Below, piece by piece: positions 2,440-19,209 of a stretch of DNA of 20,497 nt. The notes beneath the pieces are model-generated. The model saw only the letters and a program-made list of their open reading frames with translations. It made no database searches and had not been told where the DNA came from. A program made the position numbers and the translations under genes. This DNA is from Pseudolabrys sp. GTDB taxonomy: Bacteria; Pseudomonadota; Alphaproteobacteria; Rhizobiales; Xanthobacteraceae. Every line of letters begins with the position of its first letter. Within the stretch, counting starts at the first letter, position 1. Where the stretch lies: positions 1-20,497 of the forward strand of contig JAHCKF010000020.1 in the NCBI GenBank assembly GCA_026125925.1. The letters run 5' to 3'.

Positions 2440-3696
2440 TCAGTACTTGTTAAGATCGCGGCCGACGGTGCCGGTCAGTTCGTCCGGCTTAACGGTGTCA
2501 GGCGTGTAATAGCCGGCGGCTTTTTTCGCGGCGATCTCGACATGCGCGTCGGCCGGGATCATGTCGTCCGGGATCGGCACGCGCTCGACGATGTCGATGC
2601 CTTGCGACACCAGGGCATCGTGTTTCATGTCGCTCATCGAGATGAAGCGGTCGAGGCGCTTGAGTCCGAGCCAGTGGATGACATCCGGCATGAGCTGCTG
2701 GAAGCGGGCGTCCTGGACACCGGCGACGCATTCGGTGCGCTCAAAATAGGCGGCGGCGGCGTCGCCGCCTTCCTGCCGCTTGCGCGCGTTGTAGACCAGG
2801 AACTTGGTGACCTCGCCCAGCGCGCGGCCTTCCTTGCGGTTGTAGACGATGACGCCGAGGCCACCTTCCTGGCCGCCCCGTACGCATTCCTCGATGCCGT
2901 GGATGAGATAGGGCCGGCACGTACAGATGTCGGAGCCGAACACGTCGGAGCCGTTGCACTCGTCGTGCACGCGGCAGGTGATGCGCGTCGCCGGCTTGTT
3001 GAGCTTGGAGACGTCGCCGAACAGATAGACGGTGATGCCGCCGATCGGCGGCAGGAAGACCTGCAGATCCGGCCGTGTGACGAGCTCGGGGAACATGCCG
3101 GCGGTCTGCTCGAACAGCACGCGGCGCAGCGCGCCTTCCGAGGTGCCGAAGCGTTCAGCGACGCCGGGCAGATACCACACCGGATCGACCGCGATCTTTG
3201 TGACACTGACGCTGCCGTTCTTGTGCACGAGATCGCCGTCGGGCTTGAGCCGGCCGGCGCGGATCGCGTCCTGTAATTCGATGAGATCAAGCCGCGCCTT
3301 GGTGATGGCGATGCTCGGGCGGATATCGACGCCCTCGGCGATTTCATCCTTGAAATCGGAAGCGACGCGGTGGCCCCAAGGGTCGAGCGACACGATGCGC
3401 TTGGGCTCGCTCCACTGTCCGAACGGACCGATGTCTTCCGCCGGATGGGTGTTAGTCAGATCGGGGCGGCGGATCGGATCCAGCGCACCGGCCGACACCG
3501 CGAGCGCGCGATAAACCGAATAGGAGCCGCCATGCGTGCCGATGACATTGCGGTCAGCCGGGCGCGACACGGTGCCGATGATCGGCCCGCGTTCGCGTGC
3601 CGTGGCGGCGCCCCAATGGATCGGGAAGCGTGGCTTGCCGCCAGGCGTCGGATGCGAGGTAAGACGGATATGGTCGGGTCTGTTTGATCGCGTCAT
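2440..3696 (-). CDS. urc1: GTP cyclohydrolase II-like protein, URC1 type (uracil catabolism)
   Basis: The C-terminal half is homologous to GTP cyclohydrolase II (RibA). From the alternative start at 3747, the zinc ligands are Cys264, Cys275 and Cys277 (C-x10-C-x-C inside the VHDEC...DVFGSDICTC block), followed by YNRKEGRALGEVTK, equivalent to the RibA YLRQEGRGIG block. An N-terminal region of about 220 residues, beginning near DHIRLTSHP, is absent from ordinary RibA and typical of URC1-type proteins. In the yeast URC pathway the homologue is thought to open the pyrimidine ring after uracil has been converted to a nucleotide. The direct URC4 and upp neighbours and the absence of other rib genes support that role over riboflavin synthesis. 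The start is uncertain: ATG at 3696 leaves a family-like N-terminus, while ATG at 3747 adds 17 residues; neither has a strong Shine-Dalgarno sequence. Confidence 0.88.
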   Translation of the reverse strand: MTRSNRPDHIRLTSHPTPGGKPRFPIHWGAATARERGPIIGTVSRPADRNVIGTHGGSYSVYRALAVSAGALDPIRRPDLTNTHPAEDIGPFGQWSEPKRIVSLDPWGHRVASDFKDEIAEGVDIRPSIAITKARLDLIELQDAIRAGRLKPDGDLVHKNGSVSVTKIAVDPVWYLPGVAERFGTSEGALRRVLFEQTAGMFPELVTRPDLQVFLPPIGGITVYLFGDVSKLNKPATRITCRVHDECNGSDVFGSDICTCRPYLIHGIEECVRGGQEGGLGVIVYNRKEGRALGEVTKFLVYNARKRQEGGDAAAAYFERTECVAGVQDARFQQLMPDVIHWLGLKRLDRFISMSDMKHDALVSQGIDIVERVPIPDDMIPADAHVEIAAKKAAGYYTPDTVKPDELTGTVGRDLNKY

Positions 3697-3784
3697 GGAC
3701 TTAACCGGGATTGGGACAAAACCGAAGTTGGCTTCTGCTACGTCCATCCGAACTCAAATCACGAATCCGAATCCAAATGGACAA

Positions 3785-3806
3785 GGCCCGCCATCGAGAC
3801 GGGCCA
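3785..3806 (-). promoter_or_regulatory. Hairpin in the untranslated leader of the URC1 gene
   Basis: GGCCCG at 3785-3790 is the exact reverse complement of CGGGCC at 3801-3806 shifted by one base (CGGGCC starts at 3800-3801), giving a six-pair GC stem around a loop of about nine bases. It lies upstream of both candidate URC1 starts and downstream of the predicted promoter, so it would be transcribed in the leader. On the minus strand it is followed by TTGTCCATTTGG, a weak T content. It could act as an attenuator or simply be structure; nothing in the sequence decides. Confidence 0.35.
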
Positions 3807-3854
3807 GCGCACGACATTGATTACTCGGTTTTAAAGGCCGCCTCATTTCCCCCG

Positions 3855-3872
3855 CCGGATCGATCAATCCGG
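3855..3872. promoter_or_regulatory. 18 bp near-perfect palindrome upstream of URC1, candidate operator
   Basis: CCGGAT at 3855-3860 and ATCCGG at 3867-3872 are exact reverse complements, and the centre CGATCA contains GATC, so 16 of 18 positions are symmetric. It sits about 20-40 bases downstream of the predicted transcription start, where a repressor could block the URC1-URC4-upp transcript. No regulator gene of obvious matching type is adjacent other than the LysR gene at 3970-4878, and the dyad lacks the usual T-N11-A layout of a LysR site. Confidence 0.4.
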
Positions 3873-3898
3873 TCGTCGAGGTCGTCCCTTAAAAGAAA

Positions 3899-3926
3899 AA
3901 TATAGCGCCTTTTTTCCAGCGCGCAA
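3899..3926 (-). promoter_or_regulatory. Possible sigma-70-type promoter for the URC cluster
   Basis: On the minus strand TATATT (3904-3899) resembles a -10 box, with TTGCGC (3926-3921) sixteen bases upstream as a poor -35 box. The start point would be near 3892, giving a leader of roughly 145-195 bases before URC1. The AT-rich patch stands out in a GC-rich region, which is the main reason for the call. The cluster might instead be read through from the LysR gene, whose stop is at 3970. Confidence 0.33.
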
Positions 3927-3969
3927 CTGCCAACTTGCATGACTGCCCGGCGCGACGTCGATGAAGCGA

Positions 3970-4878
3970 TCAAACAACCTTAACCAATGCGGCGAGACGC
4001 TTGTTTATATGTTCCGCAAATATGGCGGTGGCGATGGGAAGATTGCGTTCTCGCAACTGTCCGAAGACCAGCTTTCCCGACGGGACGTCGCGGCCGTCGA
4101 TCTCGCGCGTGACCAAACCGAGCTTGTTACCTTCCGGCATGACGCCGATGGCGATCTGAAACGATATCAGCCCGGCATGGATGACGGCGCCGCGCAACAA
4201 CTCGAACGAGTTGGATTCGACGGCAATATTAAAGGTCAGGCCGGTGCGGGCGATGACCTCTTCCAGCAACTGGCGGCCGCCGATCGGCCGCTCGGGAAGC
4301 GCAACCGGATAATTGGCGCAGTCGCGCAGGCGCACTCGGGGCTTCTTCGCCAGAGGATGGTTCTTCGCCATCACCGCCACGAGAGTCTGCTCGAGGGTCA
4401 TCAGCGGCTGGAAGTTGGCGAAATAGGGCGGGCGGAACACCAGAACAAGATCGACCTCGAAGGCCGACAGCGCCGTCATGGCGTGTTCGTGGTCGACGAT
4501 CTTGACGTCGAATTCGACTTTCGGATGGGTCTTGCGGAAGTTGGCGATTGCCCGGGGCAGAAAATCGAGCGCCAGCGCCTGGCTGCAGGCGAGGCGCACC
4601 GTGCCGCGGCGTAGCCCTTTCAGGTCCTCGATCTGCGATTTCATGCGCTCGACTTCGCCGTTCTGCTTGCGCAGGTAATTGACGAAGACTTCGCCCGCGG
4701 CGGTCAGGCGGACGCCGCGCGGCTGACGTTCGAACAGCGTGGCGCCCAGCTCGTCTTCGAGATCGGCGATGCGACGGTTCACCGCGGAGGCGGTGACGTT
4801 GAGGTGTTCGGCCGCCTTGCGGATGGAGCGGGAGCGCGCCACCTCGTCGACGTAGTCGAGAATTCTCAAATGTTTCAT
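3970..4878 (-). CDS. LysR-family transcriptional regulator
   Basis: This 302-residue protein has the usual LysR length. The N-terminal winged helix-turn-helix is clear (LRILDYVDEVARSRSIRKAA, then LNVTASAVNRRIADLEDELG and LFERQPRGVRLTAAGE), followed by a linker helix and an effector-binding domain starting near the RRGTVRLACSQAL segment. The ATG at 4876-4878 was preferred to a GTG at 4896 because it starts with the common MKHLRILDYV-like layout. The gene is divergent from the heterocycle operon that starts at 5106 and is upstream of the URC cluster on its own strand, so it may control either or both. A T-N11-A dyad in the divergent gap fits autoregulation plus operon control. The arrangement recalls AtzR, the LysR regulator of the cyanuric acid genes of Pseudomonas sp. 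ADP, but the effector here is unknown. Confidence 0.9.
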   Translation of the reverse strand: MKHLRILDYVDEVARSRSIRKAAEHLNVTASAVNRRIADLEDELGATLFERQPRGVRLTAAGEVFVNYLRKQNGEVERMKSQIEDLKGLRRGTVRLACSQALALDFLPRAIANFRKTHPKVEFDVKIVDHEHAMTALSAFEVDLVLVFRPPYFANFQPLMTLEQTLVAVMAKNHPLAKKPRVRLRDCANYPVALPERPIGGRQLLEEVIARTGLTFNIAVESNSFELLRGAVIHAGLISFQIAIGVMPEGNKLGLVTREIDGRDVPSGKLVFGQLRERNLPIATAIFAEHINKRLAALVKVV

Positions 4879-4938
4879 GGGGCTAGCGCCTGTCACGGCG
4901 TCTCGCCGCGCCGCATGGGCGGGCGGCTGGCGCCTTCA

Positions 4939-4959
4939 GTGATGCCTTTTCGGCACCAC
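4939..4959. promoter_or_regulatory. Candidate LysR-type binding dyad (T-N11-A)
   Basis: GTGATGCC at 4939-4946 and GGCACCAC at 4952-4959 are reverse complements at seven of eight positions around a five-base centre. The inner TGCC-N5-GGCA (4943-4955) fits the T-N11-A layout typical of LysR-family recognition sites. It lies about 60-80 bp upstream of the LysR start and about 150 bp upstream of the operon start, the usual place for a divergent LysR site. The right arm overlaps the upstream sigma-54-like element at 4951-4966, so the two interpretations compete for some of the same bases. Confidence 0.5.
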
Positions 4960-5105: not shown

Positions 5106-6146
5106 ATGACGTTTTCGCCCCGTTCGCTGTTGATCGCCGCTACCGCGGTGATCGGCCTGGCCGCGCCTTTGCTGGCCCCGGCGCCCGCTGCTGCGCAAAC
5201 CAAGCTGAAGATGGTGCTGAACTGGAAATACCAGGGTCCGCAGGGCTGGTTCTTCCTTGCCGAGGACCGCGGCTACTTCAAGAAGGCCGGCATCGATATC
5301 CAGATGGACCAGGGCAACGGCTCCGGTGCACCGATCCCGCTGGTCGCCAACGGCACCTATGACGCCGGCTTCGGCGATATCAATGCGCTGATCCAGTTTG
5401 CCGCCACCAAACCGGCGGAAGCGCCGATCGCCGTTTACGTCATGTACAACCAGCCGCCGTTCACGGTGGCGGTGCGCGCCGACAGCCCGATCAAGTCGCC
5501 GAAGGATTTCGAGGGCAAGACGCTCGGCGGCGCCGCCGGCGACGGCGCGCTCAAATTGTTCCCGGCGCTCTGCAAGATCGCCAAGATCGACTGCACCAAG
5601 GTGACCATCACCAATATGCAGCCGAACCTGCGCGAGCAGATGCTGATGAACAAGCAGGTCGATGGCGTGTTCGGCTACGTCAACACCATCCGCTTCTCCG
5701 CCAAATTGATGGGCGTTGCCGACAAGGACATCCGCTACATCAATTACGGCGATTACGGCATGAACCTCTATTCCAACGCCATCATCGTCTCGAAGAAGCT
5801 CGCCGCCGAGAAACCGGAAGTCGTCAAGGGCCTGATCGAGGCGATCAACCACGGCCTCGAGGATTCGCTGAAGGATCCGGACGCCGCGATCGCCGCGGTC
5901 GCCAAGCGTGAACCGCTGATCAAGCCGGCTGTCGAGAAGGAGCGTCTCATGGCGACCTTGCACGACGAAATGAATTCGCCGGAGATCGCCAAGATCGGCG
6001 TCGGCAATGTCGACAAGGAGCGGCTGAAGAAATCGATCGACATCCTGGTCGAGGCCAACAGCCTGCCGCGCACGCCGACGGTGGACGAGATCTACACCGA
6101 CAAGTTCATGCCGCCGGCGTCGGAGCTGCCGAAAAAGCTGTTCTAG
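5106..6146 (+). CDS. ABC transporter substrate-binding protein, NMT1/THI5-like (copy 1)
   Basis: This 346-residue protein has a clear N-terminal secretion signal (hydrophobic run LLIAATAVIGLAAPLLA, then APAAAQ, cleavage likely near residue 31). The mature part opens KMVLNWKYQGPQGWFFLAED and carries GTYDAGFGDINALIQFA, layouts typical of the NMT1/THI5-like solute-binding family that includes pyrimidine-precursor, riboflavin, taurine and sulfonate binders. It would capture the operon's substrate in the periplasm and hand it to the permease and ATPase encoded downstream. AGGAG eight bases before ATG supports the start. It is the first gene of the operon, followed by a strong RNA hairpin, an arrangement often linked to higher expression of the binding protein. 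It is a clear paralogue of the protein at 10121-11152. The ligand cannot be determined from sequence. Confidence 0.9.
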   Translation: MTFSPRSLLIAATAVIGLAAPLLAPAPAAAQTKLKMVLNWKYQGPQGWFFLAEDRGYFKKAGIDIQMDQGNGSGAPIPLVANGTYDAGFGDINALIQFAATKPAEAPIAVYVMYNQPPFTVAVRADSPIKSPKDFEGKTLGGAAGDGALKLFPALCKIAKIDCTKVTITNMQPNLREQMLMNKQVDGVFGYVNTIRFSAKLMGVADKDIRYINYGDYGMNLYSNAIIVSKKLAAEKPEVVKGLIEAINHGLEDSLKDPDAAIAAVAKREPLIKPAVEKERLMATLHDEMNSPEIAKIGVGNVDKERLKKSIDILVEANSLPRTPTVDEIYTDKFMPPASELPKKLF

Positions 6147-6157
6147 ACCTTGGTGCT

Positions 6158-6187
6158 GGCCGTTTCCCGGTGGGGCGGGGAACGGCC
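6158..6187 (+). terminator. Strong stem-loop after the first substrate-binding protein gene
   Basis: GGCCGTTTCCC (6158-6168) pairs with GGGGAACGGCC (6177-6187) along eleven positions with a single G-U pair and an eight-base loop. It begins 11 bases after the stop codon and is followed by CTCTCTCTT and, further on, CTTTT, so the U tract is poor. Because downstream genes are in the same direction, partial termination or protection of the upstream message from 3' decay is more likely than full termination. Confidence 0.6.
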
Positions 6188-6225
6188 ACTCTCTCTTCGC
6201 CGACTTTTAAATTCCGGGTGTTGCA

Positions 6226-7020
6226 ATGGATCTGAAGCTTGCCGGCCGCGTCGCCATGATTACCGGGCCGGCCAAAGGCATGGGCGCTGCCGTCACTACG
6301 GCGTTTGCCGCTGAGAGGGCGAAACTGTCTTTGCTCGGCCGCGATATCGCGGCGATCGAGCCGGTGGCTGCCGCGGTGCGCAAGGCCGGCGGCGAGGCGA
6401 TCATCGTGCCGTGCGATCTCACCGATCCGAAGCAATGCGAGACGGCGGCCGAGAAGACCAGGGCGGCTTATGGCGATCGCATCGACATTCTCGTCAACGT
6501 CGCCGGCGGTTCGGGTCCGGTCGGCAAGACCGGCATCGACACCACCCCGGACGAATTCGAAGAGATCGTCACGCTCAACATGAACGGTTGCTTTCACACC
6601 ATGCGCAGCGTGCTGCCGACCATGATCGCGCAGCGTTACGGCAAGATCGTCAATGTCGGCGGCACCTTCGGCATGCGCGGCCGCGCTGGCCGGATGTCCT
6701 ATTCGGCGTCGAAATGGGGCCTGCGCGGCATCACCAAGAGTTTCGCGCTCGAGGTCGGCCAGTACAACGTCAACGTCAATTACGTCGCCCCGGGCATGGT
6801 CGATGGCCCGCGTTTCCGCGACAAAGTGTGCGCTGACATGGCCAAAAAGTTCAACATCACGGTCGAGGAGGCGATGGAGAGGCATGCCGCCGAATACGCG
6901 CTGCGCCGCGTCACGGTGGATGCCGACGTCGCCAATGCCTGCCTGTTCCTGGCGAGCGATGTGTCAGGCCAGATCACCGGCGCCGATCTGCCGGTCGATG
7001 GCGGCTGGGCGGCATTGTGA
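6226..7020 (+). CDS. SDR-family oxidoreductase with altered catalytic serine position
   Basis: This 264-residue protein has the classical short-chain dehydrogenase fold. The NAD(P)-binding TGPAKGMG is at residues 13-20, NVAGG at 91-95 replaces the usual NNAG, and the catalytic YSASK is at 159-163 (Tyr159, Lys163). The C-terminal GADLPVDGGW near residues 252-261 is typical. The catalytic Ser normally thirteen residues before the Tyr is Gly146, with Thr147 beside it, so activity may rely on Thr or be changed. It would oxidise or reduce an alcohol/carbonyl group in the cytosol. It is the only redox enzyme in the operon, lying between the binding protein and the cyclic amidohydrolase (7 bp gap), so it could act on an oxidised or reduced form of the ring or on the ring-opened product. 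Confidence 0.88.
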   Translation: MDLKLAGRVAMITGPAKGMGAAVTTAFAAERAKLSLLGRDIAAIEPVAAAVRKAGGEAIIVPCDLTDPKQCETAAEKTRAAYGDRIDILVNVAGGSGPVGKTGIDTTPDEFEEIVTLNMNGCFHTMRSVLPTMIAQRYGKIVNVGGTFGMRGRAGRMSYSASKWGLRGITKSFALEVGQYNVNVNYVAPGMVDGPRFRDKVCADMAKKFNITVEEAMERHAAEYALRRVTVDADVANACLFLASDVSGQITGADLPVDGGWAAL

Positions 7021-7027
7021 GGACCCC

Positions 7028-8449
7028 ATGAGCGCGACCAAGGCCGATCTCGTCATCGCCAACGGCCGCATCGTCACGCCTGATAGCGTGTTCGACGGCT
7101 CGATCGCCATCAAGGACGGCAAGGTGCTGGCTGTCGGCGAACTCGAGGCCATGCCGCTCGCGGCCGAGCTGTTCGATGCCGCCGGCATGCACATCCTGCC
7201 GGGCGCCATCGACGACCATGTGCATTTCCGCGACCCCGGCTATCCGCACAAGGAAGACTGGGAGAGCGGTACGGCGGCGGCGGCGTTCGGCGGCGTCACC
7301 TGCGTGTTCGACATGCCGAACACCATCCCGCCGACCGGCAATGGCGAGATCCTCGCCGCCAAGCACGCCATCGCCGCCGCCAAGGCGCATGTCGATTTCG
7401 GCCTCTACGGCCTGCTCGGCGACAACACCATCGCCAGCGTTCCGCAACTGATCGACGGCGGCGTCATCGGCTTCAAGCTCTATATGGGCAACACCTTCGG
7501 CAAGATCCCGTCGCCCGACACCGGCGCGACGCTGGAGTGCTTCGAGGTCGCCGCCGGTACCGGTAAGCGCGTCTCGCTCCATGCCGAGAACAACGACATC
7601 ATGGAGCGCCGGCAGAAGCGGCTGATGGCAGCCGGCAGGAAGGACCAGTGGGCGCATCTTGCCGCACGGCCCAACGTCGTCGCCGTCGAGGCGGTGAGCC
7701 GCGCCGCGACCCTCGCCGAATGGACCGGCGCGCGCATCCACGTGCTGCACATTTCCACGGCTGAGGAACTGCGGCCGCTGCGCGAGGCCAAGGCGCGCGG
7801 CGTCGATATCACCGGCGAGACCTGTCCGCATTATCTGCTGCTGTCGACCGACGATTACAGCCGCGTGCCCGGCATCATCGCCGTCAATCCGCCGGTAAGG
7901 GAAAAGCAGAACCAGCAGCCGATCTTCGACGCGCTTCTCGACGGCACCATCGACGTCATCGCCACCGACCATGCGCCGCACGCCTACGAGGAAAAGACGC
8001 GCAACGACATCTGGACCGTCGATTGCGGCTTCCCCGGCGTCGAGACGCAAATGCCGCTGATGCTCACCCAGGTGAATGCCGGCCGCATGAGCATTTCCGA
8101 TTACGTGCGCATGAGCGCCTACAATCCTGCGCGCATCTGGGCGCTGTATCCGCACAAGGGCGCGCTGCTGCCGGGATCGGACGCCGACATCGCTATTGTC
8201 GATCTCGGCCGTGATCACGTCATCCGCGACGCCGAGACGCAATCACGCTCCAAGGTGTCGCCGTGGGACGGATACCAGGTGAAGGGGATGCCCATTCACA
8301 CGCTTGTGCGCGGTCGCTTCGTCATGAAGGACCGCAAGCTGGTGAACGGCACTAAGGGCTGGGGCCGCTCCGTGCACACCATCCAGGACATGCCCGCGCC
8401 GACCGTACTGAACGCCGGCCACACCATGCGCGCGATTACGCAACCATAG
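7028..8449 (+). CDS. Cyclic amidohydrolase, dihydroorotase/allantoinase/hydantoinase type
   Basis: This 473-residue protein is a binuclear-metal amidohydrolase acting on cyclic amides. All metal ligands are visible: HVH at residues 64-66, Lys150 in GFKLYMG as the carboxylated lysine, His185 in SLHAE, His241 in VLHIS and Asp314 in ATDHAPH. The FRDPGYPHKEDWESGTAAA and FDMPNT stretches point to the dihydroorotase/allantoinase branch more than to classical D-hydantoinase. Genuine pyrimidine synthesis is unlikely because no pyr genes are nearby and the setting is a transport operon, so hydrolysis of a ring such as a hydantoin, dihydropyrimidine or allantoin is inferred. The ATG at 7028 follows GAGGA that overlaps the SDR stop codon. 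The open frame continues upstream inside the SDR gene, which is only a shadow. Confidence 0.88.
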   Translation: MSATKADLVIANGRIVTPDSVFDGSIAIKDGKVLAVGELEAMPLAAELFDAAGMHILPGAIDDHVHFRDPGYPHKEDWESGTAAAAFGGVTCVFDMPNTIPPTGNGEILAAKHAIAAAKAHVDFGLYGLLGDNTIASVPQLIDGGVIGFKLYMGNTFGKIPSPDTGATLECFEVAAGTGKRVSLHAENNDIMERRQKRLMAAGRKDQWAHLAARPNVVAVEAVSRAATLAEWTGARIHVLHISTAEELRPLREAKARGVDITGETCPHYLLLSTDDYSRVPGIIAVNPPVREKQNQQPIFDALLDGTIDVIATDHAPHAYEEKTRNDIWTVDCGFPGVETQMPLMLTQVNAGRMSISDYVRMSAYNPARIWALYPHKGALLPGSDADIAIVDLGRDHVIRDAETQSRSKVSPWDGYQVKGMPIHTLVRGRFVMKDRKLVNGTKGWGRSVHTIQDMPAPTVLNAGHTMRAITQP

Positions 8450-8463
8450 GCGAGGGGACGGGC

Positions 8464-9290
8464 ATGAACGCCGAAGACCATCCGCGCACCGGCCAGACCT
8501 TCGTCGAACTCGAGAATGTCACGCTGACCTACGGGCGCGGCGAGCGGCAGATCGTGGCGCTGGGCGAGACCAATCTGCGCATCGATGAAGGTGACTTCGT
8601 CGCGCTGGTCGGGCCGTCGGGCTGCGGCAAGTCCACCATCCTCAAGCTGGTCACCGGCCTCATCACCGCCAGCACCGGCTATGTCTATGTCGCCGGCCGC
8701 GAAGTCGGCGCCGCGCCGGTACGCGTCGGCATGGCGTTCCAGAATCCGACCATGCTGCCGTGGCTGACCGTGCGCGACAACGTCATGATGCCGCTGAAGA
8801 TCGTGCCGCCGTTCCGCCTGGAGTATCAGAGCAAGAAGAAGACCGAGTTCCGGGACCGCGCCGAGGCGCTGCTCAAGGAAGTCGGGCTCGGCGGCTTCGG
8901 CGACAAGCATCCGTGGCAATTGTCCGGCGGCATGCTGCAGCGCGCCTCGCTGTGCCGGGCGCTGATCCACGAGCCGCAGCTTCTGATGCTCGACGAGCCG
9001 TTCGGCGCGCTCGACCAGTTTACGCGCGAGGAGCTGTGGTCCGTGATGCAGGCACTGTGGCTGAAGCTGAAGCCCACGGTGATCCTGGTCACGCACGACC
9101 TCAAAGAGGCCGGCTATCTCGCCACGCGCATCTGCGTGATGCGCTCGCGGCCCGGCCAGATCATCGACGACGCGCCGGTGCCGTTCGCCCGGCCGCGCAC
9201 CATCGACATGTCCTACACCCCGGAATTCGTGTCGATGACGCAGCGGCTGCGCGAATTGATCGTCGCGGCGCGGCCGGTAAAGGAGACCGT

Positions 9291-9294
<4 letters not shown>
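8464..9294 (+). CDS. ABC transporter ATP-binding protein (SsuB/TauB/ThiZ-like)
   Basis: This 276-residue cytosolic ATPase powers import. Walker A GPSGCGKST is at residues 50-58, the Q-loop is AFQNPTMLPW at about 91-100, the signature LSGGMLQR at 153-160, Walker B LLMLDEPFGALD at about 173-184, and the switch histidine is in VTHDLKEA at about 209-216. The subfamily is that of nitrate, sulfonate and taurine-type importers, which pair with NMT1/THI5-like binding proteins. GAGGGGAC before the ATG supports the start. Its stop codon overlaps the start of the permease gene (ATGA), so the two are translationally coupled and form one transporter. Confidence 0.93.
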
Positions 9295-10067
<773 letters not shown>

Positions 10068-10120
10068 TCGGCCCGTTCACAGGTTTGCCGGCAATCCACT
10101 GCAATATGGAGAAGTACTGA

Positions 10121-11152
10121 ATGTCTAAGTTGCGTTTTGGTATGGCGGCGCTGGTGGCGCTGCTCTGCCTGGGAGCCGGCGCGAAGGCGGACGAGCCGAC
10201 CAAGATCCGCTTCACTCTCGACTGGAAGTATCAGGGCCTGCACGCCTACATCTTCTGGGCCAAGGACCATGGCTACTTCGCCAAGGAAGGCCTCGACGTG
10301 TCGATCGACCAGGGCACCGGCTCGGCCGCGACCGTGACCCGCATCGTGTCGGGCACCTATGACGCCGGCTTTGGCGACATGAACGCCATCATCCAGTTCG
10401 CCGGCGCCAAGCCGGGCCAGCAGCCGGTGATGGTCTACATGATCTACAACACGCCGCCTTTCGCGCTGATCGTGAAGAAGGATTCGCCGATCAAGACGCT
10501 CAAGGATCTTGAAGGCAGGAAGATGGGCACGCCGGCCGGCGGCGCGGCCGGGCAACTGTTCCCGGCGCTCGCCGCGCTCAACGGCATCGATGCCGCCAAG
10601 GTCTCGACCGTCAACATGGCGCCGAACCTGCAGGAGCAGATGCTGGTCAAGAACGACGTCGATTTCTCGGCGATCTTCACCGTCACCAGCTATGCCAACC
10701 TCATCGGCATGAAGATGGATCCGCTCAAGGACTTCCGCTGGTTCTACTACTCCGACTACGGCATCGACCTCTATTCCAACGGCATCATGGTGTCGAAGGC
10801 GCTGATCACCGAGAAGCCGAAGGCGGTGGCGGGTCTCGTCCGTGCGCTCAATCGGGCCATGATCGAGGTCGCCACCGATCCGGCGGCGGGCGTCAAGGAG
10901 ATGCTCAAGGTCGAGCCGTTGATGAACGAGGATATCGAGTTGCAGCGTCTGAAGTACGCCTTGAAGACCCATTTCGTCTCCAAGGAGACCGACGCCAACG
11001 GTCTCGGCGATGTCTCCGATGCGCGCATGGAGAAGGGCATCAAGCTGCTGGTTGACACCTACAAGCTGCCGAATACGCCGGCGGTGAAGGACGTCTTCGA
11101 CCGCTCGTTCCTGCCGCCGAAGTCCGAGCGCATGCTCAAGCTCAATTTCTGA
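10121..11152 (+). CDS. ABC transporter substrate-binding protein, NMT1/THI5-like (copy 2)
   Basis: This 343-residue periplasmic protein has a short signal peptide (FGMAALVALLCLGAGAKA, cleavage near residue 23). Its mature part starts KIRFTLDWKYQGLHAYIFWA and contains GTYDAGFGDMNAIIQFA, so it aligns end to end with the protein at 5106-6146 and shares, by eye, around half of the residues. Several pocket-like positions differ: PQGWFF against LHAYIF, GNGSGAPIPLV against GTGSAATVTRI, and GGAAGDGALKLF against GTPAGGAAGQLF. That suggests a related but different ligand. GGAGAAG before the ATG supports the start. It follows the permease by 53 bp and precedes the TRZ/ATZ amidohydrolase by 20 bp. Confidence 0.9.
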   Translation: MSKLRFGMAALVALLCLGAGAKADEPTKIRFTLDWKYQGLHAYIFWAKDHGYFAKEGLDVSIDQGTGSAATVTRIVSGTYDAGFGDMNAIIQFAGAKPGQQPVMVYMIYNTPPFALIVKKDSPIKTLKDLEGRKMGTPAGGAAGQLFPALAALNGIDAAKVSTVNMAPNLQEQMLVKNDVDFSAIFTVTSYANLIGMKMDPLKDFRWFYYSDYGIDLYSNGIMVSKALITEKPKAVAGLVRALNRAMIEVATDPAAGVKEMLKVEPLMNEDIELQRLKYALKTHFVSKETDANGLGDVSDARMEKGIKLLVDTYKLPNTPAVKDVFDRSFLPPKSERMLKLNF

Positions 11153-11172
11153 GCCACGACCCGAGACACGAA

Positions 11173-12609
11173 ATGACAACGACAGTCGCGGCCTCCTGGC
11201 TGCTTCCGGGCGCGGGGAAGGCCGCGGCTGCCAACCAAACGATCGCCATCGACGGCGGCACGATCGCCGCCGTCACGACCGGCGAGGGTGGTGGTTCCCT
11301 CGTCATGCCGGCGCTCGCCAATGCCCACGATCACGCTCGCATCGCGCGGCTGAGCCAGACGGGCAGCTACGATGTCCCGCTCGAAGCCTGGCTGCCGTAC
11401 CTCACCTTGTTGCCGGCGGTCGATCCCTACCTGTCGAGCGCCGTATCGTTTGCGAGGTCGGCGCGCGGCGGCGTCGGCGCCGTCATGGCGCACTATACCC
11501 GCGTGCAAGGGCTCACCGACTTTCCGACTGAAGCCAAGGCCGTGGCCAAAGCGGCGCGCGACGTCGGCATTCGCATGGCGCTGGCCGTACATTGCCGCGA
11601 TCTCAATCCGCTGGTCTACGACCCGCACGAGAAGCTGCTGGCCGAGCTCTCACCGGCAGCTTGCGAATGCGTCACCCGCCGCTTCCTGCGCAAGCCAGTC
11701 GCGCCGAAGGATCAGGTGGCCATGGTTGAGACCGTCGCGCGGGAGATCGAAGGCGACGGCGTCACCGTGCAATACGGCCCCGCGGGGGTGCAGTGGTGCA
11801 CCGACGAGATGCTCCGCCTGATCGGCGAAGCCTTGGCGGCGTCGAAGCGACGCGTCCATATGCACCTGCTCGAAACCAAATATCAGCGGCAATGGGCCGA
11901 CCGCACTTTCCCGCAGGGTCTCGTTCGCTATCTCGACGACATCGGTCTCGTCAATGAGCGCGTCTCCTTCGCCCATTGCATCTATCTGCGGCCCGATGAG
12001 ATCGACCTGATTGCCGAACGCGGCGCCACCATCGTCGTGAATACCTCGTCGAACTTCCTTGTCAGTTCCGGCCTGGCGCCGCTCGCCGAATTCATCAGGC
12101 GCGGCTGCCGCGTTGCCATGGGCCTCGATGGCCTTGCCTTCGACGAGGACGAAGACGGCTTGCGCGAGATGCGGCTCGCCTACAACGTCCACAAGGCTTC
12201 CGGCTTCGAGGTCCGTGTTTCGCAGGCCGATCTCATGCGCTTTGCCACTGCCAATGGCCGCTTCGCCGTCACCGGCATGGCGGAGAAGGGGCTTGCGCCA
12301 GGCGCGCCGGCCGATCTGCTCACGCTCGACTGGCCGGCGCTGTCGGCCGAACTGATCGAGCCGGACGTGCCGCCGTTCGATCTGCTGCTGGCCAAGGGCG
12401 TGAAGCAATACATCACGGGGCTCGTCGTTGCCGGCCGCGATGTCGTGCGCCGCGGCAAGGTCGTCGGCGTCGATTTGCCCGCGCTCGAGACCGAACTGCT
12501 GAAGACGTTGCGCGACAAGTATCCGACGACCGCTGATGTGCGTGCGACCATGCCCGAGCTGAAGTCGGCGCTGCGCAAGCACTACACCGGCCCGCTCTAC
12601 TGCGCGTGA
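11173..12609 (+). CDS. TRZ/ATZ-type metal-dependent amidohydrolase/deaminase
   Basis: This 478-residue cytosolic protein belongs to the amidohydrolase superfamily branch containing AtzB/AtzC, TrzN, and guanine, 8-oxoguanine and cytosine deaminases. The expected mononuclear-site residues are present: HDH at 52-54, His231 and Glu234 in HMHLLE, His268 in FAHC and Asp319 in GLDG. The N-terminal PALANAHDH is a variant of the usual PGLVNAHTH. It would remove an amino or other leaving group from an N-heterocycle. Its stop overlaps the possible GTG start of the ring-opening amidohydrolase gene, so the two enzymes are probably made together and may act in sequence, as deamination to a cyanurate- or barbiturate-like ring then ring opening. 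The ribosome binding site is weak (CGAGACACGAA). The substrate is not determined. Confidence 0.85.
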   Translation: MTTTVAASWLLPGAGKAAAANQTIAIDGGTIAAVTTGEGGGSLVMPALANAHDHARIARLSQTGSYDVPLEAWLPYLTLLPAVDPYLSSAVSFARSARGGVGAVMAHYTRVQGLTDFPTEAKAVAKAARDVGIRMALAVHCRDLNPLVYDPHEKLLAELSPAACECVTRRFLRKPVAPKDQVAMVETVAREIEGDGVTVQYGPAGVQWCTDEMLRLIGEALAASKRRVHMHLLETKYQRQWADRTFPQGLVRYLDDIGLVNERVSFAHCIYLRPDEIDLIAERGATIVVNTSSNFLVSSGLAPLAEFIRRGCRVAMGLDGLAFDEDEDGLREMRLAYNVHKASGFEVRVSQADLMRFATANGRFAVTGMAEKGLAPGAPADLLTLDWPALSAELIEPDVPPFDLLLAKGVKQYITGLVVAGRDVVRRGKVVGVDLPALETELLKTLRDKYPTTADVRATMPELKSALRKHYTGPLYCA

Positions 12610-12614
12610 TCACC

Positions 12615-13706
12615 ATGCCCGTCGCCAAAGTCCACCGCATTTCCGCTTCCGCGCCCGACGATATGAGCGGCATCGAGGCCGCGATCGCGTCCGGCCGCAT
12701 CGATCCGAAGGGCGTCGTCGCCGTGCTCGGCAAGACAGAGGGCAATGGTCTGGTCAACGACTTCAGTCGCGGCATGGCGACGACGGCGCTGGCGCGATTG
12801 TTCGGGCGTCATCTGCCGGCAGCGGACGCAGCCCAGGTCTGCCTCGTCATGTCCGGGGGCACCGAAGGCGGTATGGCGCCGCATTGGGTGGTGTTCGAGC
12901 GGGCCGAGGGTGAGGGCGGCGCATCACCGGCGCTGGCCATCGGACGGGCGCACACGCCGGCGCTGCCGTTCGAGCAGCTCGGCCGGCTCGGCGAGGTCGA
13001 TCAGGTCGCTGAGGGCGTGCGGGCGGCGATGCGTGATGCCGGCATCGCCGACGCCGCCGACGTGCACTTCGTGCAGATCAAGTGTCCGCTGCTGACGGCG
13101 CAGCGCGTCGCCGAGGCCGATGCCCGCGGCGCGGCGGTCGCGACGCGGGACACGCTCAAGTCGATGGGTTTGTCGCGTGCCGCGAGTGCGCTTGGCGCGG
13201 CCGTCGCCCTGGGCGAAATCGATCGCACTTTCATCAACGATAGGCAGATCGGCGCCGACTGGTCGCTGTGGTCGGACCGCGCGTCGACGTCGGCTGGTAT
13301 CGAACTCGTCAATCACGAAATCGTCGTGCTCGGCATGTCGAAGACGTGGTCGGGGCCGCTGGTGATCGACCACGCGGTGATGGCCGACGGCATCGACATC
13401 GAGCCAGTACGCGTGGCGCTGCAGCGGCTCGGATTCGGCGCGCCCGGCCAGCTCGACGCCACGCGGCGAAGCAGAATGGTGGCATTGCTGGCCAAGGCGG
13501 AAGCCAGCCATGACGGCCGGCTGCGCGGCCATCGCCACACCATGCTGGACGACAGCGATATTGCCTCGACCCGCCATGCCCGCGCCTTCGTCTGCGGCGC
13601 ACTCGCCGGTCTGGTCGGTCACGCCGAGATCTATGTCTCCGGCGGCGCTGAGCATCAGGGCCCGGACGGTGGCGGCCCGGTCGCGGTGATTGTCGATCGT
13701 GGCTAG
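12615..13706 (+). CDS. Ring-opening amidohydrolase (cyanuric acid amidohydrolase / barbiturase family)
   Basis: This 363-residue protein belongs to the small AtzD/TrzD/barbiturase family, which has a threefold-repeated fold with a Ser-Lys pair in each repeat. The pairs appear to be Lys40 (GKTEGNG) with Ser80 (SGGTEGG), Lys156 (IKCPLL) with Ser226 (RASTSAG), and Lys294 with Ser342 (SGGAEHQGPDGGGPVAVI). The RGHRHTMLDDSDIASTRHARA block is also diagnostic. Family members hydrolyse cyanuric acid to carboxybiuret or barbituric acid to ureidomalonate; the sequence alone does not let me choose. ATG 12615 was chosen since MPVAKVHRI resembles other family N-termini, but GTG at 12606 overlaps the previous stop. 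It is the last gene of the operon and shares its final bases with the convergent acetamidase gene. Confidence 0.9.
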   Translation: MPVAKVHRISASAPDDMSGIEAAIASGRIDPKGVVAVLGKTEGNGLVNDFSRGMATTALARLFGRHLPAADAAQVCLVMSGGTEGGMAPHWVVFERAEGEGGASPALAIGRAHTPALPFEQLGRLGEVDQVAEGVRAAMRDAGIADAADVHFVQIKCPLLTAQRVAEADARGAAVATRDTLKSMGLSRAASALGAAVALGEIDRTFINDRQIGADWSLWSDRASTSAGIELVNHEIVVLGMSKTWSGPLVIDHAVMADGIDIEPVRVALQRLGFGAPGQLDATRRSRMVALLAKAEASHDGRLRGHRHTMLDDSDIASTRHARAFVCGALAGLVGHAEIYVSGGAEHQGPDGGGPVAVIVDRG

Positions 13707-14653
13707 CCGTCCCTCAGCAGGTCCTTCGCGATCATCACGTGCACGCCCTTCGAGATGTTGACGAGCTGTGTCACGTGCACGTCGGCAGCGACGCTGCACA
13801 GCGAATAGGCGTCTTCCGCCGACAGACCGCCGATCTCGCCGATCTTCCGGATCATCGCGCGCAGGGCGAATTCCGCCGCGCGGTCGAGATCCTCGTCGAA
13901 GCCCATGGTGATGAGATGCGTCGGCGTCTCCGCCCAGGGGTGGTCGATGCCGGTCTCTTTCGCCAGCGTCACGCGCAGCTTGCCGCGCAAGGCCGTCTCG
14001 ATGGCGGTGACGCAAACCTCGCCGTCGCCTTGCAGCGCATGGCCGTCGCCGACCGACAGCAGTCCGCCGTCATTGAATACCGGCAGATGCAATGTTGCGC
14101 CGACGCCGAGGTGCTTGAGGTCCATGTTGCCGCCGAAGGCACGCGGGATGTTGGAGATGCAGGCTCCGTCGGCGGGGCGGGGCGCGACGCCCATGACGCC
14201 GAAGAACGGCGCCACCTTGAGCTCGAGCCCCCACGGCATGGTGACGACGCCGCGCGCTTCGTCGATCGGCGTGAAGATGTGCCGCAGGTTCGGGAAGTCG
14301 GCCGGCAGCGTGCCGGCGCCGGGCTTGATCATGTTCCAGCCCCAGGGCTGCGGGAAGCCGAGCTCCAGCACTTCCACGACGAGCTCGTCGCCGGGTACCG
14401 CACCGGCGACCGCGATCGGGCCGGTCATGAGATGCGCGCCAATGCCGCGCGGCACCTGCGCCAGCACGCGGGCATGCTCAGGCATCAGCGTGAGGCCGGA
14501 ACCGGCAGGGGGCGAATTCTCGTCATTGCCGGAGAGAGTCGTCACCTCGACGGTGTCACCGGACGCGATGCGCAGCACCGGCTTGATCGCGGCATCGAAT
14601 ACGCCGCGGTGCACCGTGCCGACATCGCCACGCAGGATATGATGTTGCCCCAT
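13703..14653 (-). CDS. Acetamidase/formamidase family protein
   Basis: This 316-residue protein is of the FmdA/AmdA family, cytosolic hydrolases that release ammonia from short amides such as formamide and acetamide. Recognisable blocks are DNGS-like DGGLLSVGDGHALQGDGEVC at about 200-219, GPIAVAGAVPGDELVVEVLE at about 80-98, and the C-terminal YSLCSVAADVHVTQLVNISKGVH. GGAG lies about seven bases before ATG 14653. It faces the ring-opening amidohydrolase, with both stop codons inside one CTAG, and lies 70 bp downstream of the RND transporter on the same strand. Beside a ring-opening enzyme it could act on a linear amide product such as a ureido acid or biuret-like compound, but that is inference. 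Confidence 0.88.
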   Translation of the reverse strand: MGQHHILRGDVGTVHRGVFDAAIKPVLRIASGDTVEVTTLSGNDENSPPAGSGLTLMPEHARVLAQVPRGIGAHLMTGPIAVAGAVPGDELVVEVLELGFPQPWGWNMIKPGAGTLPADFPNLRHIFTPIDEARGVVTMPWGLELKVAPFFGVMGVAPRPADGACISNIPRAFGGNMDLKHLGVGATLHLPVFNDGGLLSVGDGHALQGDGEVCVTAIETALRGKLRVTLAKETGIDHPWAETPTHLITMGFDEDLDRAAEFALRAMIRKIGEIGGLSAEDAYSLCSVAADVHVTQLVNISKGVHVMIAKDLLRDG

Positions 14654-14723: not shown

Positions 14724-17700
14724 CTAGTGCGATGCCGGTGCGCTGGCCTCGGGCGCCGGTGCGGCGCCATGCATGCGCAACGGCCTGAAGCCGGAGAGCG
14801 CGCGCACCACCATGTAGAACACCGGCGTCAGGAAGATGCCGAACACGGTGACACCGATCATGCCGGCAAACACCGCGACACCCATGGCGTGACGCATCTC
14901 TGCGCCGGCGCCGACCGAGGTGACGAGGGGCACCACGCCCATGATGAACGCCATCGACGTCATCAGGATCGGTCGCAGCCGCAAACGGCTCGCGGTGATC
15001 GCGGCCTTGAGCGGCGGTTCGCCGGCGAACTCCAACTCACGCGCGAACTCGACGATCAGGATGGCGTTCTTCGCCGACAGGCCGACCAGCACGAACAGGC
15101 CGATCTGCGTGAAGATGTTGTTGTCGCCGCCGGTCAGCCAGACGCCAATCATCGCCGCCATCAGGCCCGTCGGCACAACCATCAGGATCGCCATCGGCAG
15201 GATGAGGCTTTCATAGAGCGCGGCGAGCACGAGGAACACGAGCAGGATCGCCAGCGGATAGATCAGCGCCGCGGAGTCGCCGGCGAGGATCTGCTGGTAG
15301 GTCAATTCGGTCCACTCGAAGCTGATGCCCTTCGGCAGCGTTTCCGCGGCGATGCGTTCGATCGCCGCCTGGGCCTGGCCCGACGAATAGCCGGGAGCCG
15401 GGCCGCCGCTGATATCCGCGGACAGGAAGCCGTTGTAGCGCATCGCCCGCTCCGGGCCCGCAGTCGACTTGATGTTCAGCACCGCGCCGAGCGGCACCAT
15501 CTGGCCGTTGCTCGATCGCACCTGCAGCCGCGCCACATCCTCCGCATGAGCGCGGAATTTCGCGTCAGCCTGCACGCGGACCGAATAGGTGCGGCCGAAC
15601 TTGTTGAAGTCGTTGACGTAGACCGAGCCAAGGTAAGTCTGAAGCGCCTCGAAGATATCCGGCACCGGCACGCCGAGCTGGCGCGCCTTGGTGCGGTCGA
15701 TATCCGCATAAAGCTGAGGCACGTTCACGCGGAAGCTGGTGAACAGACCCGCCAATTCCGGCGCCTGCATCGCTTTGCCGAGGAAAGCCTTGGTGGCGTC
15801 GTCGAGGACGCGATAGCCGAGACCGGCGCGATCCTCGATCTGCAGCTTGAAGCCGCCGATCGTACCGAGGCCCATCACGGGTGGCGGCGGGAACATGGCG
15901 ATGAACGCGTCGCCGATCGCCGCATACTTCATGTTCAGCGCCATGGCGATGGCGCCGCCCGACAGGTTCGGCGTCTTGCGTTCGTCAAATGGCTTCAGTG
16001 TCACGAAGACGATGCCGGCATTCGATGAATTGGTGAAGCCCGCGATCGACAGGCCGGGGAAGGCGACCGCGCTTTCGACACCCGGCGTCTTGAGCGCGAT
16101 ATCGCTCATCTGGCGGATTACGTCTTCGGTGCGGTCGAGCGTGGCGCCGTCAGGCAATTGCGCGAAGCCGACAAGATACTGCTTGTCCTGGCTCGGGATG
16201 AAGCCACCTGGCACGATGCGGAACATGGCGATGGTGACGCCGACCAGCACGACGTAAACGCCCATGACGATGGTTTTGCGGCCGAGCAGGCCGGTCACAC
16301 CGCCGCCATAGGCGCGGGTGCCGGCGCCGAAGCCGCGATTGAACAGGCGGAAGAACGGGCCGAGCACCTTGTCCATGCCGCGAGTGAGCCAGTCCTTCGG
16401 CGCATCGTGGCCCTTGAGCAGCAGCGCGGCGAGGGCAGGCGACAAGGTGAGCGAGTTGATCGCCGAGATCACCGTCGAAATGGCGATGGTGAGCGCAAAC
16501 TGATTGTAGAACTGGCCAGACAAGCCGCTGATGAAGGCGAGCGGCACGAACACCGCGACCAGCACCAGGGCGATGGCGATGATCGGACCCGACACTTCGC
16601 TCATGGCGCGATAGGTGGCGTCGCGCGCCGACAGGCCGTTTTCGATGTTTCGTTCGACGTTCTCGACCACGACGATGGCGTCGTCGACCACGATGCCGAT
16701 TGCCAGCACCAGGCCGAACAGCGACAGCGCGTTGATCGAGAAGCCGAGGGCGTACATCACCGCGAAGGTGCCGATGATCGACACCGGCACGGCGAGCAGC
16801 GGAATGATCGAGGCGCGCCAGGTCTGCAGGAACAGGATGACGACCAGCACGACGAGCACGATGGCTTCGAGCAGCGTGTGCACGACGGCCTCGATCGAGG
16901 CGCGGATGAACTGCGTCGGATCGTAGACGATCGAGTAGTCGACGCCTTCCGGCATGGCGTTCTTGAGGTCGGCCATCACCTTGCGCACGCTGTCGGAGAT
17001 GTCGAGCGCGTTCGAGCCCGGCGCCTGCATGATGCCGATGGCGACCGCGTCCTTGTTGTCGAGCAATGAGCGCAACGCATAATCGGCCGAACCGAGTTCG
17101 AGGCGCGCGACATCCTTCAGCCGCGTTACCTGGCCGTCGGTTCCGGTGCGGACGATGATGTCGCCGAACTCCTCTACGGTGTTGAGGCGGCCCTGGGCGT
17201 TCAACGAAAGCTGGAGATTGAGCCCAGGCTCGCTGGGCGAACCGCCGACGATGCCGGCGGCGGCCTGCACGTTCTGCGCCCGGATTTCGCGGACGATATC
17301 GCCGGCGGAGAGCCCTCGCGCCGCGATCTTCTGGGGGTCGAGCCAGACGCGCATGGCGTAGTCGCCGGCGCCAAACAGTTGCACGTCGCCGATGCCTTTG
17401 ATGCGGGCGATACGGTCCTTGACGTTGAGCAGCGCATAGTTGCGCAGATACGTCATGTCGTAGCGGCCGTTCGGCGACAGGATGTGCACGACCATGGTCA
17501 GGTCGGGCGAACTCTTGGTCGTGGTGATGCCGAGCGTGCGCACTTCCTCCGGCAACCGCGCTTCGGCTTGTGCCACGCGATTCTGTACGAGCTGCGTCGC
17601 CTTGTCGGGATCGGTGCCGAGCGCGAAGGTGACGGTCAGCGTCATCAGGCCGTCGGTGGTCGCCTGGCTGCTCATATAGAGCATGCCCTCGACGCCGTTG

Positions 17701-17912
17701 ACGGATTCCTCGATCGGCGTCGCCACGGTCTCGGCGATGACGCGCGGGTTGGCGCCGGGATATTGCGCGCGCACGACGACGGACGGCGGTACGACTTCCG
17801 GGTACTCCGAAATCGGCATGGCCCGCAGCGCCAGCAGGCCGGCGAGGAAGATCAACGTCGACAGCACGCCGGCAAAGATCGGGCGGTCGATGAAAAAGCG
17901 TGAAATATTCAT
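14724..17912 (-). CDS. RND multidrug efflux transporter, inner-membrane subunit (HAE1, MexF/BpeF/AcrB-like)
   Basis: This 1062-residue protein has full length for hydrophobe/amphiphile RND pumps. It begins MNISRFFIDRPIFAGVLSTL, typical of AcrB-like first transmembrane helices. The proton-relay aspartates are in GIVVDDAIVVVENVERN near residue 405, the duplicated large periplasmic loops are present, and a second transmembrane cluster begins near PLAILLVFLVLAALYESL. It would export drugs, solvents or other hydrophobic compounds across the inner membrane with the fusion protein encoded just upstream (55 bp gap). No outer-membrane channel gene is in the window, so it must use one encoded elsewhere. 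Control by the divergent TetR regulator is likely. The substrate range cannot be read from sequence. Confidence 0.95.
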   Translation of the reverse strand: MNISRFFIDRPIFAGVLSTLIFLAGLLALRAMPISEYPEVVPPSVVVRAQYPGANPRVIAETVATPIEESVNGVEGMLYMSSQATTDGLMTLTVTFALGTDPDKATQLVQNRVAQAEARLPEEVRTLGITTTKSSPDLTMVVHILSPNGRYDMTYLRNYALLNVKDRIARIKGIGDVQLFGAGDYAMRVWLDPQKIAARGLSAGDIVREIRAQNVQAAAGIVGGSPSEPGLNLQLSLNAQGRLNTVEEFGDIIVRTGTDGQVTRLKDVARLELGSADYALRSLLDNKDAVAIGIMQAPGSNALDISDSVRKVMADLKNAMPEGVDYSIVYDPTQFIRASIEAVVHTLLEAIVLVVLVVILFLQTWRASIIPLLAVPVSIIGTFAVMYALGFSINALSLFGLVLAIGIVVDDAIVVVENVERNIENGLSARDATYRAMSEVSGPIIAIALVLVAVFVPLAFISGLSGQFYNQFALTIAISTVISAINSLTLSPALAALLLKGHDAPKDWLTRGMDKVLGPFFRLFNRGFGAGTRAYGGGVTGLLGRKTIVMGVYVVLVGVTIAMFRIVPGGFIPSQDKQYLVGFAQLPDGATLDRTEDVIRQMSDIALKTPGVESAVAFPGLSIAGFTNSSNAGIVFVTLKPFDERKTPNLSGGAIAMALNMKYAAIGDAFIAMFPPPPVMGLGTIGGFKLQIEDRAGLGYRVLDDATKAFLGKAMQAPELAGLFTSFRVNVPQLYADIDRTKARQLGVPVPDIFEALQTYLGSVYVNDFNKFGRTYSVRVQADAKFRAHAEDVARLQVRSSNGQMVPLGAVLNIKSTAGPERAMRYNGFLSADISGGPAPGYSSGQAQAAIERIAAETLPKGISFEWTELTYQQILAGDSAALIYPLAILLVFLVLAALYESLILPMAILMVVPTGLMAAMIGVWLTGGDNNIFTQIGLFVLVGLSAKNAILIVEFARELEFAGEPPLKAAITASRLRLRPILMTSMAFIMGVVPLVTSVGAGAEMRHAMGVAVFAGMIGVTVFGIFLTPVFYMVVRALSGFRPLRMHGAAPAPEASAPASH

Positions 17913-17956
17913 GGCAGTACCGGCGTCGGGAAGGCGCTAAGTCAGTTGAAAGGGAA

Positions 17957-19185: not shown

Positions 19186-19209
19186 TGAAGTTTCTCCACC
19201 AACCATATA

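Follow-up and report, generated by a model that had tools for sequence, protein, structure and literature searches.

Here we describe an operon of Pseudolabrys sp. in which the genes for one ABC transporter and two periplasmic binding proteins are joined to those for a short-chain dehydrogenase/reductase (SDR), a cyclic amidohydrolase of the dihydroorotase/allantoinase/hydantoinase kind (DHO), a TRZ/ATZ-type amidohydrolase (TRZ) and a very probable cyanuric acid hydrolase (AtzD). We consider it probable that this is a LysR-controlled operon for uptake and hydrolysis of a small nucleobase-like N-heterocycle, that is, a cyclic ureide, imide or triazine, including cyanuric acid. The operon lies in a 20,497-nucleotide stretch of contig JAHCKF010000020.1 (assembly GCA_026125925.1), hereafter the window. 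The grouping of its genes is not due to chance, the gene set is modular, and AtzD, TRZ and an adjoining FmdA-family amidase (FmdA) are add-on modules. While the component families are known, what appears to be new is the operon as such, together with its operator-like dyad and its modular composition.

Eight forward-strand genes are packed into positions 5106-13706, with gaps between neighbours that range from a 4-base overlap (ATPase/permease and TRZ/AtzD) to about 80 bases. In order, these encode an NMT1/THI5-like periplasmic binding protein (SBP1; 5106..6146, NMT1 family match), the SDR oxidoreductase (6226..7020; Pfam adh_short_C2, GxxxGxG at 14, YxxxK at 159), DHO (7028..8449), the transporter ATPase (8464..9294; Pfam ABC_tran) and permease (9291..10067; Pfam BPD_transp_1), a second NMT1/THI5-like binding protein (SBP2; 10121..11152, Pfam NMT1 2e-37, with sequence matches to 4nmy, THI5 and 3ix1), TRZ (11173..12609; Pfam Amidohydro_1, deaminase-like metal pattern) and AtzD (12606..13706). 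FmdA (13703..14653, reverse strand; Pfam FmdA_AmdA, 110 bits) converges on the operon and overlaps the end of AtzD. A first-pass annotation made from the DNA letters had listed this same-strand set together with a converging acetamidase/formamidase, and both the open reading frames and the family matches agree with it. The divergent LysR gene, the operator-like dyad and the adjoining URC-type uracil genes reported below are additions to that annotation. Rfam and tRNA scans of the window gave no matches.

The assignment of AtzD draws on its profile match and its active site. The protein scores 557 bits against the NCBIfam equivalog CyanAcHdlAtzD (NF052395; cut-off 360) and is 66-69% identical to AZC_3892 of Azorhizobium caulinodans ORS 571, the crystallised cyanuric acid hydrolase (PDB 4NQ3) whose active-site positions have been published (PMC4051656). 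Published work shows that this orthologous A. caulinodans enzyme hydrolyses cyanuric acid. The 356-residue AtzD of genome G023 carries the nine active-site residues at the published A. caulinodans numbers (Lys40, Arg52, Ser79, Lys156, Arg188, Ser226, Lys285, Arg314 and Ser333), and by alignment the window AtzD retains all nine, comprising three Ser-Lys dyads and three substrate Arg. Barbiturases are reported to differ from cyanuric acid hydrolases at four tested positions, among them that of Arg188 (PMC3758960). The window AtzD carries the cyanurate-type Arg, Thr, Arg and Gly at the equivalents of AtzD Arg195, Thr321, Arg325 and Gly345, equivalence being set by numbering offset. Given these active-site and specificity residues, the window protein can with high probability be called a cyanuric acid hydrolase, and a barbiturase identity is rejected; of the "cyanurate/barbiturate ring-opening enzyme" proposed in the first-pass annotation, the cyanurate half is retained and the barbiturate half is lost.

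The crystallised enzyme sits in the same type of operon. The A. caulinodans locus (L091), which holds the AtzD of G023, runs from a divergent LysR gene through isochorismatase, SBP1, SDR, DHO, ATPase, permease, SBP2 and TRZ to AtzD. An isochorismatase-family gene is present there, and neither FmdA nor URC genes were seen within 20 kb, whereas the reverse holds for the window. The examined parts of the two papers naming AZC_3892 contain no description of its gene neighbours. A second AtzD-like gene of A. caulinodans (L147; 43% identity) stands beside a BMP-type transporter and an amidase; it is probably AZC_3203, a guess made by matching position, and AZC_3203 is reported to act on neither cyanuric nor barbituric acid (PMC3758960).

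Conservation was assessed in an even sample of 248 genomes from the family to which Pseudolabrys sp. Root1462 (G001) belongs; the eight operon proteins of that strain are 88-98% identical to those of the window. DHO orthologs (at least 65% identity) occur in 49 of the 248. Ten of these 49 loci were set aside before counting because contig ends lay too close, leaving 39 loci with full context. SDR accompanies DHO in all 39, and LysR, SBP1, ATPase and permease do so in 38 each, with L104 as the exception. Routine scattering of the genes, which the first-pass annotation had named as evidence that would tell against its proposal, is therefore not observed for this core, and its idea of a conserved import and hydrolysis gene set, most likely for an N-heterocycle, is upheld by the same linkage. 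The co-occurrence that it proposed to look for, of five enzyme families with both binding proteins, is borne out within the family as regards the core; it is partial for AtzD, TRZ and FmdA, which are optional, and in the wider order the close operon is rare, being for the most part a feature of this single family.

Around the core, gene content varies: TRZ is found in 28 of the 39 full-context loci, AtzD in 26, FmdA in 18, an isochorismatase-family gene in 15 and URC1 in 10. SBP2 was counted in 28, although the matches in L110 and L113 are probably SBP1 itself. Minimal cores such as L093 have neither AtzD nor TRZ. The single five-enzyme pipeline of the first-pass annotation, with one substrate passing obligatorily through every enzyme, was consequently rejected, since AtzD, TRZ and FmdA are each optional; FmdA is present in 18 loci, an unrelated amidohydrolase in 15 and neither in 6. 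AtzD and DHO keep company. Relatives of AtzD occur in 69 of the 248 genomes, in 33 of them at almost full length and with at least 60% identity; scored at that level, AtzD is found together with DHO in 31 genomes and alone in 2, DHO is found alone in 18, and 197 have neither (Fisher p 2e-24, kinship ignored). On the DHO tree (45 rows) AtzD requires 5 changes and TRZ 9. Some genomes appear twice in the alignments and trees (e.g. L019 and L114), and residue counts given below are of sequences, not species.

Beyond the close operon, loci L214 and L216 (DHO at 52-53%) unite AtzD, a xanthine dehydrogenase-family molybdenum hydroxylase, DHO and a TRZ-type hydrolase, with SDR also present in L216. 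That AtzD and DHO meet again in a different gene order supports a functional link between them. In L215 a molybdenum hydroxylase and DHO are accompanied by an NMT1-type protein, a permease, an ATPase and a TRZ-type hydrolase; across L214-L217, Pfam assignment was made for the L214 proteins and the NMT1 protein of L217, and the remainder were assigned by sequence cluster. In L213 and L218 a related DHO/SDR/TRZ set is joined by three further proteins: a 2OG-Fe(II) oxygenase, a member of the pyroglutamyl-peptidase family and a Gfo/Idh oxidoreductase (domains taken from L213). A LOG-like protein (Pfam Lysine_decarbox in L108, cluster c29 elsewhere) lies in or beside core loci L027, L064, L103, L105 and L108, and in L022 the DHO gene is split into two pieces (2791-4219).

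The operon is preceded by a divergent LysR-type regulator gene (3970..4896, reverse strand, alternative later start at 4878; Pfam LysR_substrate and HTH_1). Between it and the first operon gene lies a 19-bp operator-like dyad of the T-N11-A form, TGATGCCTTTTCGGCACCA (4940..4958), which scores 27.5 bits against 5.3 for the next best site in the window. The T-N11-A arrangement is a mark of LysR-type sites, and here it stands, as such operators do, between a divergent regulator and its target. The dyad recurs in most of 38 non-redundant LysR-operon intergenic regions, with three misfits and one half site, and is conserved in core loci both with and without AtzD. As a motif of width 19 it reaches 20.1 bits versus 8.4-8.8 in shuffled controls; at width 17 the same search picked up the start of the LysR gene in place of the dyad, and at width 15 it recovered the dyad in part. 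The scoring matrix was built from 31 of the 38 sites, excluding the misfits (L027, L037, L064), the half site (L133) and near-duplicates (L108, L110, L131). Loci L091, L106 and L112 have a variant, TGTAGCC or CGTAGCC with GGCTACA, in which both arms are changed. We infer that LysR binds this dyad, a probable operator.

The strict form of the dyad occurs exactly once, at the operon promoter, in the whole genomes of eight of ten relatives, where the reversed control gave no match; in the other two (G129, G072) the strict form is absent and the sites have diverged. A looser genome-wide pattern was uninformative, as its reversed control matched more often in 21 of 25 genomes. In a wider sample of 16 loci, all but one from genomes that had contributed neither to the matrix nor to the training set (L212 shares a genome with L027), sites of at least 18 bits were found in four, namely L203, L206, L209 and L211 (18.1, 18.1, 22.6 and 19.2 bits), beside LysR or the first operon gene; the other 12 have no such site, although two of these (L205, L212) have a recognised LysR. 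At non-core loci, only 2 of 76 AtzD genes have an upstream site of at least 11 bits (L143, 21.8; L127, 14.5). A score of 14 bits is reached by 1.0% of random 460-base stretches and one of 20 bits by 0.6%, partly because some of them contain true sites. In G241, where the core with FmdA is at one place and AtzD at another (L143), the 21.8-bit site suggests that the unlinked AtzD may belong to the regulon of the operon in trans. It is the single clear case among those 76 genes, that of L127 being weaker.

DHO passes TIGR00857, the multifunctional dihydroorotase subfamily (333 bits, cut-off 279.05), and falls below the cut-off of the D-hydantoinase/dihydropyrimidinase profile TIGR02033 (321.2 against 393.25). 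Its H62, H64, K148, H183, H239 and D312, which we take to be metal ligands, are invariant in at least 97% of 72 sequences. DHO is thus of the enzyme kind known from hydantoinase, dihydropyrimidinase and allantoinase pathways, yet the window protein lies under the dihydropyrimidinase and AllB equivalog cut-offs. TRZ belongs among amidohydrolases that include atrazine and triazine hydrolases, and its H52xH54, H229xH231xxE234, H268 and D319 are invariant in at least 97% of 53 sequences. By fold SBP1, and by sequence SBP2, is closest to formylaminopyrimidine- and thiamin-binding proteins, at an identity of only about 22%. In SDR residues 143-163, YxxxK is kept and Gly-Gly-Thr stands at the position expected for the catalytic Ser; of 69 sequences, at least 97% share Thr147.

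The placement of FmdA varies: it may converge on the operon, follow either the permease or AtzD in the same direction, or lie beyond LysR. FmdA and the isochorismatase-family gene are found together in none of the 39 full-context cores, where 6.9 would be expected (naive Fisher p 2e-6). The DHO tree gives five changes per trait, and the tree test yields two independent pairs when starred branches are counted and five when all are, too few for significance; the tree comprised the 39 loci plus the window, L003, L005, L027, L064 and L069, the states of these six being entered by hand. In L003 FmdA is about 6 kb away, and in L103 it was called from a two-piece gene (7314-8260) whose pieces were searched apart. 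This pattern suggests that FmdA and the isochorismatase-family amidohydrolase are substitutes for one step. The latter forms a separate clade, with members at least 60% identical to the A. caulinodans protein and the next proteins below 40%, and its Asp-Lys-Cys triad (D48, K158 and C191 in A. caulinodans) is invariant in 22 aligned sequences. A BiuH identity was rejected for the A. caulinodans operon protein, which scores 118.5 against the BiuH cut-off of 370 and is also below the RutB cut-off.

From these assignments the following route can be proposed. SBP1 and SBP2 would capture the ring in the periplasm and pass it to their one shared ATPase/permease pair. Inside the cell TRZ, where present, would strip a ring amino group, DHO would open a cyclic ureide or imide, and SDR would oxidise or reduce a carbinol or carbonyl of the substrate or product. 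AtzD would convert cyanuric acid through 1-carboxybiuret to biuret, and FmdA, or in other lineages the isochorismatase-family amidohydrolase, would cut a linear amide or ureide. An allophanate hydrolase encoded elsewhere would finish the route after a biuret hydrolase; allophanate hydrolase is over its cut-off in the genomes of 10 of 10 relatives and of 1 of 14 controls, and unclassified isochorismatase relatives at 33-39% identity occur in all ten. The optional modules would widen the range, TRZ (mostly with SBP2) to amino forms, AtzD to cyanuric acid, and FmdA or the isochorismatase-family enzyme to the linear product.

Several observations weigh against such a system. When genome contigs were scanned for AtzD and the best 80 loci of 432 relatives were taken, with the core defined at these loci as SDR with SBP1 or DHO in our own gene calls, 27 had the core and 53 lacked it. 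Conversely, TRZ is missing from 11 of the 39 cores and AtzD from 13, and the absence of AtzD means that the core must have some substrate other than cyanuric acid. Across the order, DHO at 65% identity or more was found in only 2 of 397 genomes (G001 and G035, which the family sample contains as well), and in 20 of 397 at E<=1e-150. FmdA, on its own strand, matches the broad Pfam family FmdA_AmdA and scores 70.9 against a cut-off of 500 on the formamidase equivalog NF045496, SDR has no obvious catalytic Ser, and the window has no biuret hydrolase. Finally, the substrate, the order of steps and the reactions of SDR, DHO, TRZ and FmdA are deductions from gene families and context.

Other explanations account for part of these data. 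Use of allantoin or hydantoin would make DHO an allantoinase or hydantoinase, with SDR acting on a ureidoglycolate-type intermediate, FmdA or the isochorismatase-family enzyme finishing the ureide, and AtzD as an add-on. The A. caulinodans DHO does pass the AllB profile TIGR03178 (373.2, cut-off 357.85), the window DHO being just under it (343.8), and minimal cores such as that of L093 dispense with AtzD and TRZ. However, no allantoicase, ureidoglycolate or glyoxylate gene is among the scanned window genes, the closest solved relative of DHO is an L-hydantoinase, the binding proteins are pyrimidine-type by fold, and AtzD and TRZ are left unaccounted for; we regard this explanation as unlikely. 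Somewhat less likely still is degradation of xenobiotic s-triazines, in which the binding proteins would import triazines, TRZ would deaminate ammeline or ammelide and AtzD would open cyanuric acid. The family of TRZ and the assignment of AtzD fit, but SDR and DHO would have no role, a third of the cores do without AtzD, and the core genes diverge along a tree on which AtzD changes few times.

The affinities of the two binding proteins could also be read as pointing to breakdown or salvage of the thiamin pyrimidine (hydroxymethylpyrimidine, HMP, or its N-formylamino form), imported by ThiY-like proteins. FmdA or the isochorismatase-family enzyme would then remove the acyl group, TRZ would deaminate, DHO would open the ring and SDR would oxidise the hydroxymethyl group. 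Against this stand the low identity of the binding proteins, the lack of any thiamin gene in the window and an unexplained AtzD, and we give the idea little credence. That FmdA, TRZ and AtzD merely adjoin an unrelated transporter operon is the most improbable explanation. The optional genes do come and go on the DHO tree, as such an account would have it, but the linkage of the core contradicts it there, and the TRZ/AtzD overlap, the strong co-occurrence of AtzD with DHO and the dyad before the unlinked AtzD of L143 argue against it for the rest. An N-heterocycle uptake and hydrolysis operon remains our preferred explanation.

As to where such a heterocycle might arise, uric acid oxidation is reported to yield triuret and cyanuric acid (PMC7948467), and cyanuric acid is also reported as a product of oxidative damage to DNA (PMC3758960). 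This makes oxidised purines a plausible source in nature, and the substrate is perhaps an oxidised purine product. A more specific version, which we put forward as a long shot, is that the operon is the natural home of cyanuric acid hydrolase and degrades triazinone-type purine oxidation products (oxonate or 5-azauracil, perhaps 5-azacytosine). On what is generally known of 5-azauracil chemistry, TRZ would deaminate 5-azacytosine to 5-azauracil, which DHO would open to N-formylbiuret for cleavage by FmdA or the isochorismatase-family enzyme; SDR, or the molybdenum hydroxylase of L214 and L216, would oxidise the ring (as C6 hydrate) to cyanuric acid, which AtzD would open. If true, this would give every optional enzyme a job, and it would explain why unrelated formamidase-type families occur in both main AtzD contexts.

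The second of these contexts is a cluster with a BMP-like transporter, present at 43 of the 53 non-core AtzD loci and at none of the 27 core loci. Its Rhizobium leguminosarum-type representative (L073), a cyanuric acid/biuret cluster, has a BMP-like transporter, formamidase, BiuH, AtzD and a second isochorismatase. It shares AtzD, a dedicated ABC transporter and an amidase with the window operon, but differs in the type of transporter (cluster c11, in 0 of 27 core loci), in a BiuH over its cut-off and in lacking the SDR/DHO core; no isochorismatase-family gene, and thus none of BiuH type beside AtzD, is among the scanned window genes. The L073 amidase passes the cut-off for a formamidase of the nitrilase family (589 against 406), and its sequence cluster (c15) occurs at 29 of the 53 non-core AtzD loci, while FmdA occurs at 11 of the 27 core ones. 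By profile assignment, two unrelated formamidase-type families adjoin AtzD, FmdA itself being below the formamidase equivalog cut-off. With the atzDGEHF operon of Pseudomonas sp. ADP (PMC6219798), the window operon has AtzD as ring opener in common; it is without AtzE, AtzG, AtzH and AtzF genes and has instead SDR, DHO, two binding proteins and an ABC transporter. No Amidase-family gene, such as those of AtzE or AtzF type, was found among the scanned window genes.

On the other side of LysR, the reverse strand carries a URC1-like GTP-cyclohydrolase-II-like gene (2440-3747; PRK07198 equivalog, 758.5 bits, cut-off 403), a DUF1688 gene (1171-2403; 485 bits) and a uracil phosphoribosyltransferase gene (UPRT, 531-1160; family match). 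Together they presumably represent the URC1/URC4/UPRT set of the URC uracil pathway. URC1 is found in 101 of the 248 family genomes, and 32 of the 49 DHO-bearing genomes have it. At 12 of the 49 loci no more than 9 kb separates it from DHO, in more than one orientation (L009 compared with the window), and the two are apart or on separate contigs in 20 of the 32 genomes having both. This closeness has a chance p of 1e-20 with kinship ignored, several of the 12 being close relatives. The URC genes are possibly linked in function to the operon. In common with Rut/URC uracil pathways, 15 of 39 relatives have a RutB/BiuH-like amidohydrolase and the window operon adjoins the URC set, but no other Rut-type gene was matched in the window and URC1 is near few of the full-context cores. 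In L020 (6256-11092), AtzD directly follows URC1-DUF1688-UPRT and has no SDR/DHO core.

Elsewhere in the window, an RND efflux pump (permease and adaptor) with a divergent TetR regulator (14724-19957) adjoins the operon, a neighbourhood that recurs in L001 and in few other core loci. The window edge cuts a galactarate/altronate dehydratase gene, of which the C-terminal part remains (3-461, forward strand).

The first-pass annotation did not recognise the gene combination as a described pathway, and nothing contradicts this, since no description of the combination or the operon was found in the literature searched; most subscription literature lies outside that coverage, and an earlier mention is possible. 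The same literature gave no paper settling either the URC or the oxidised-purine question. FmdA and the isochorismatase-family enzyme are flagged here as possible substitutes for one step. In soil relatives of the root-nodule bacteria, a well-studied cyanuric acid hydrolase is often part of a conserved gene set, probably under joint control, which hints at the natural role of the enzyme. Since the crystallised enzyme is surrounded by a conserved operon that has its own importer and a probable operator, the question of its natural substrate becomes testable, and the binding proteins and the LysR effector should point to that substrate.

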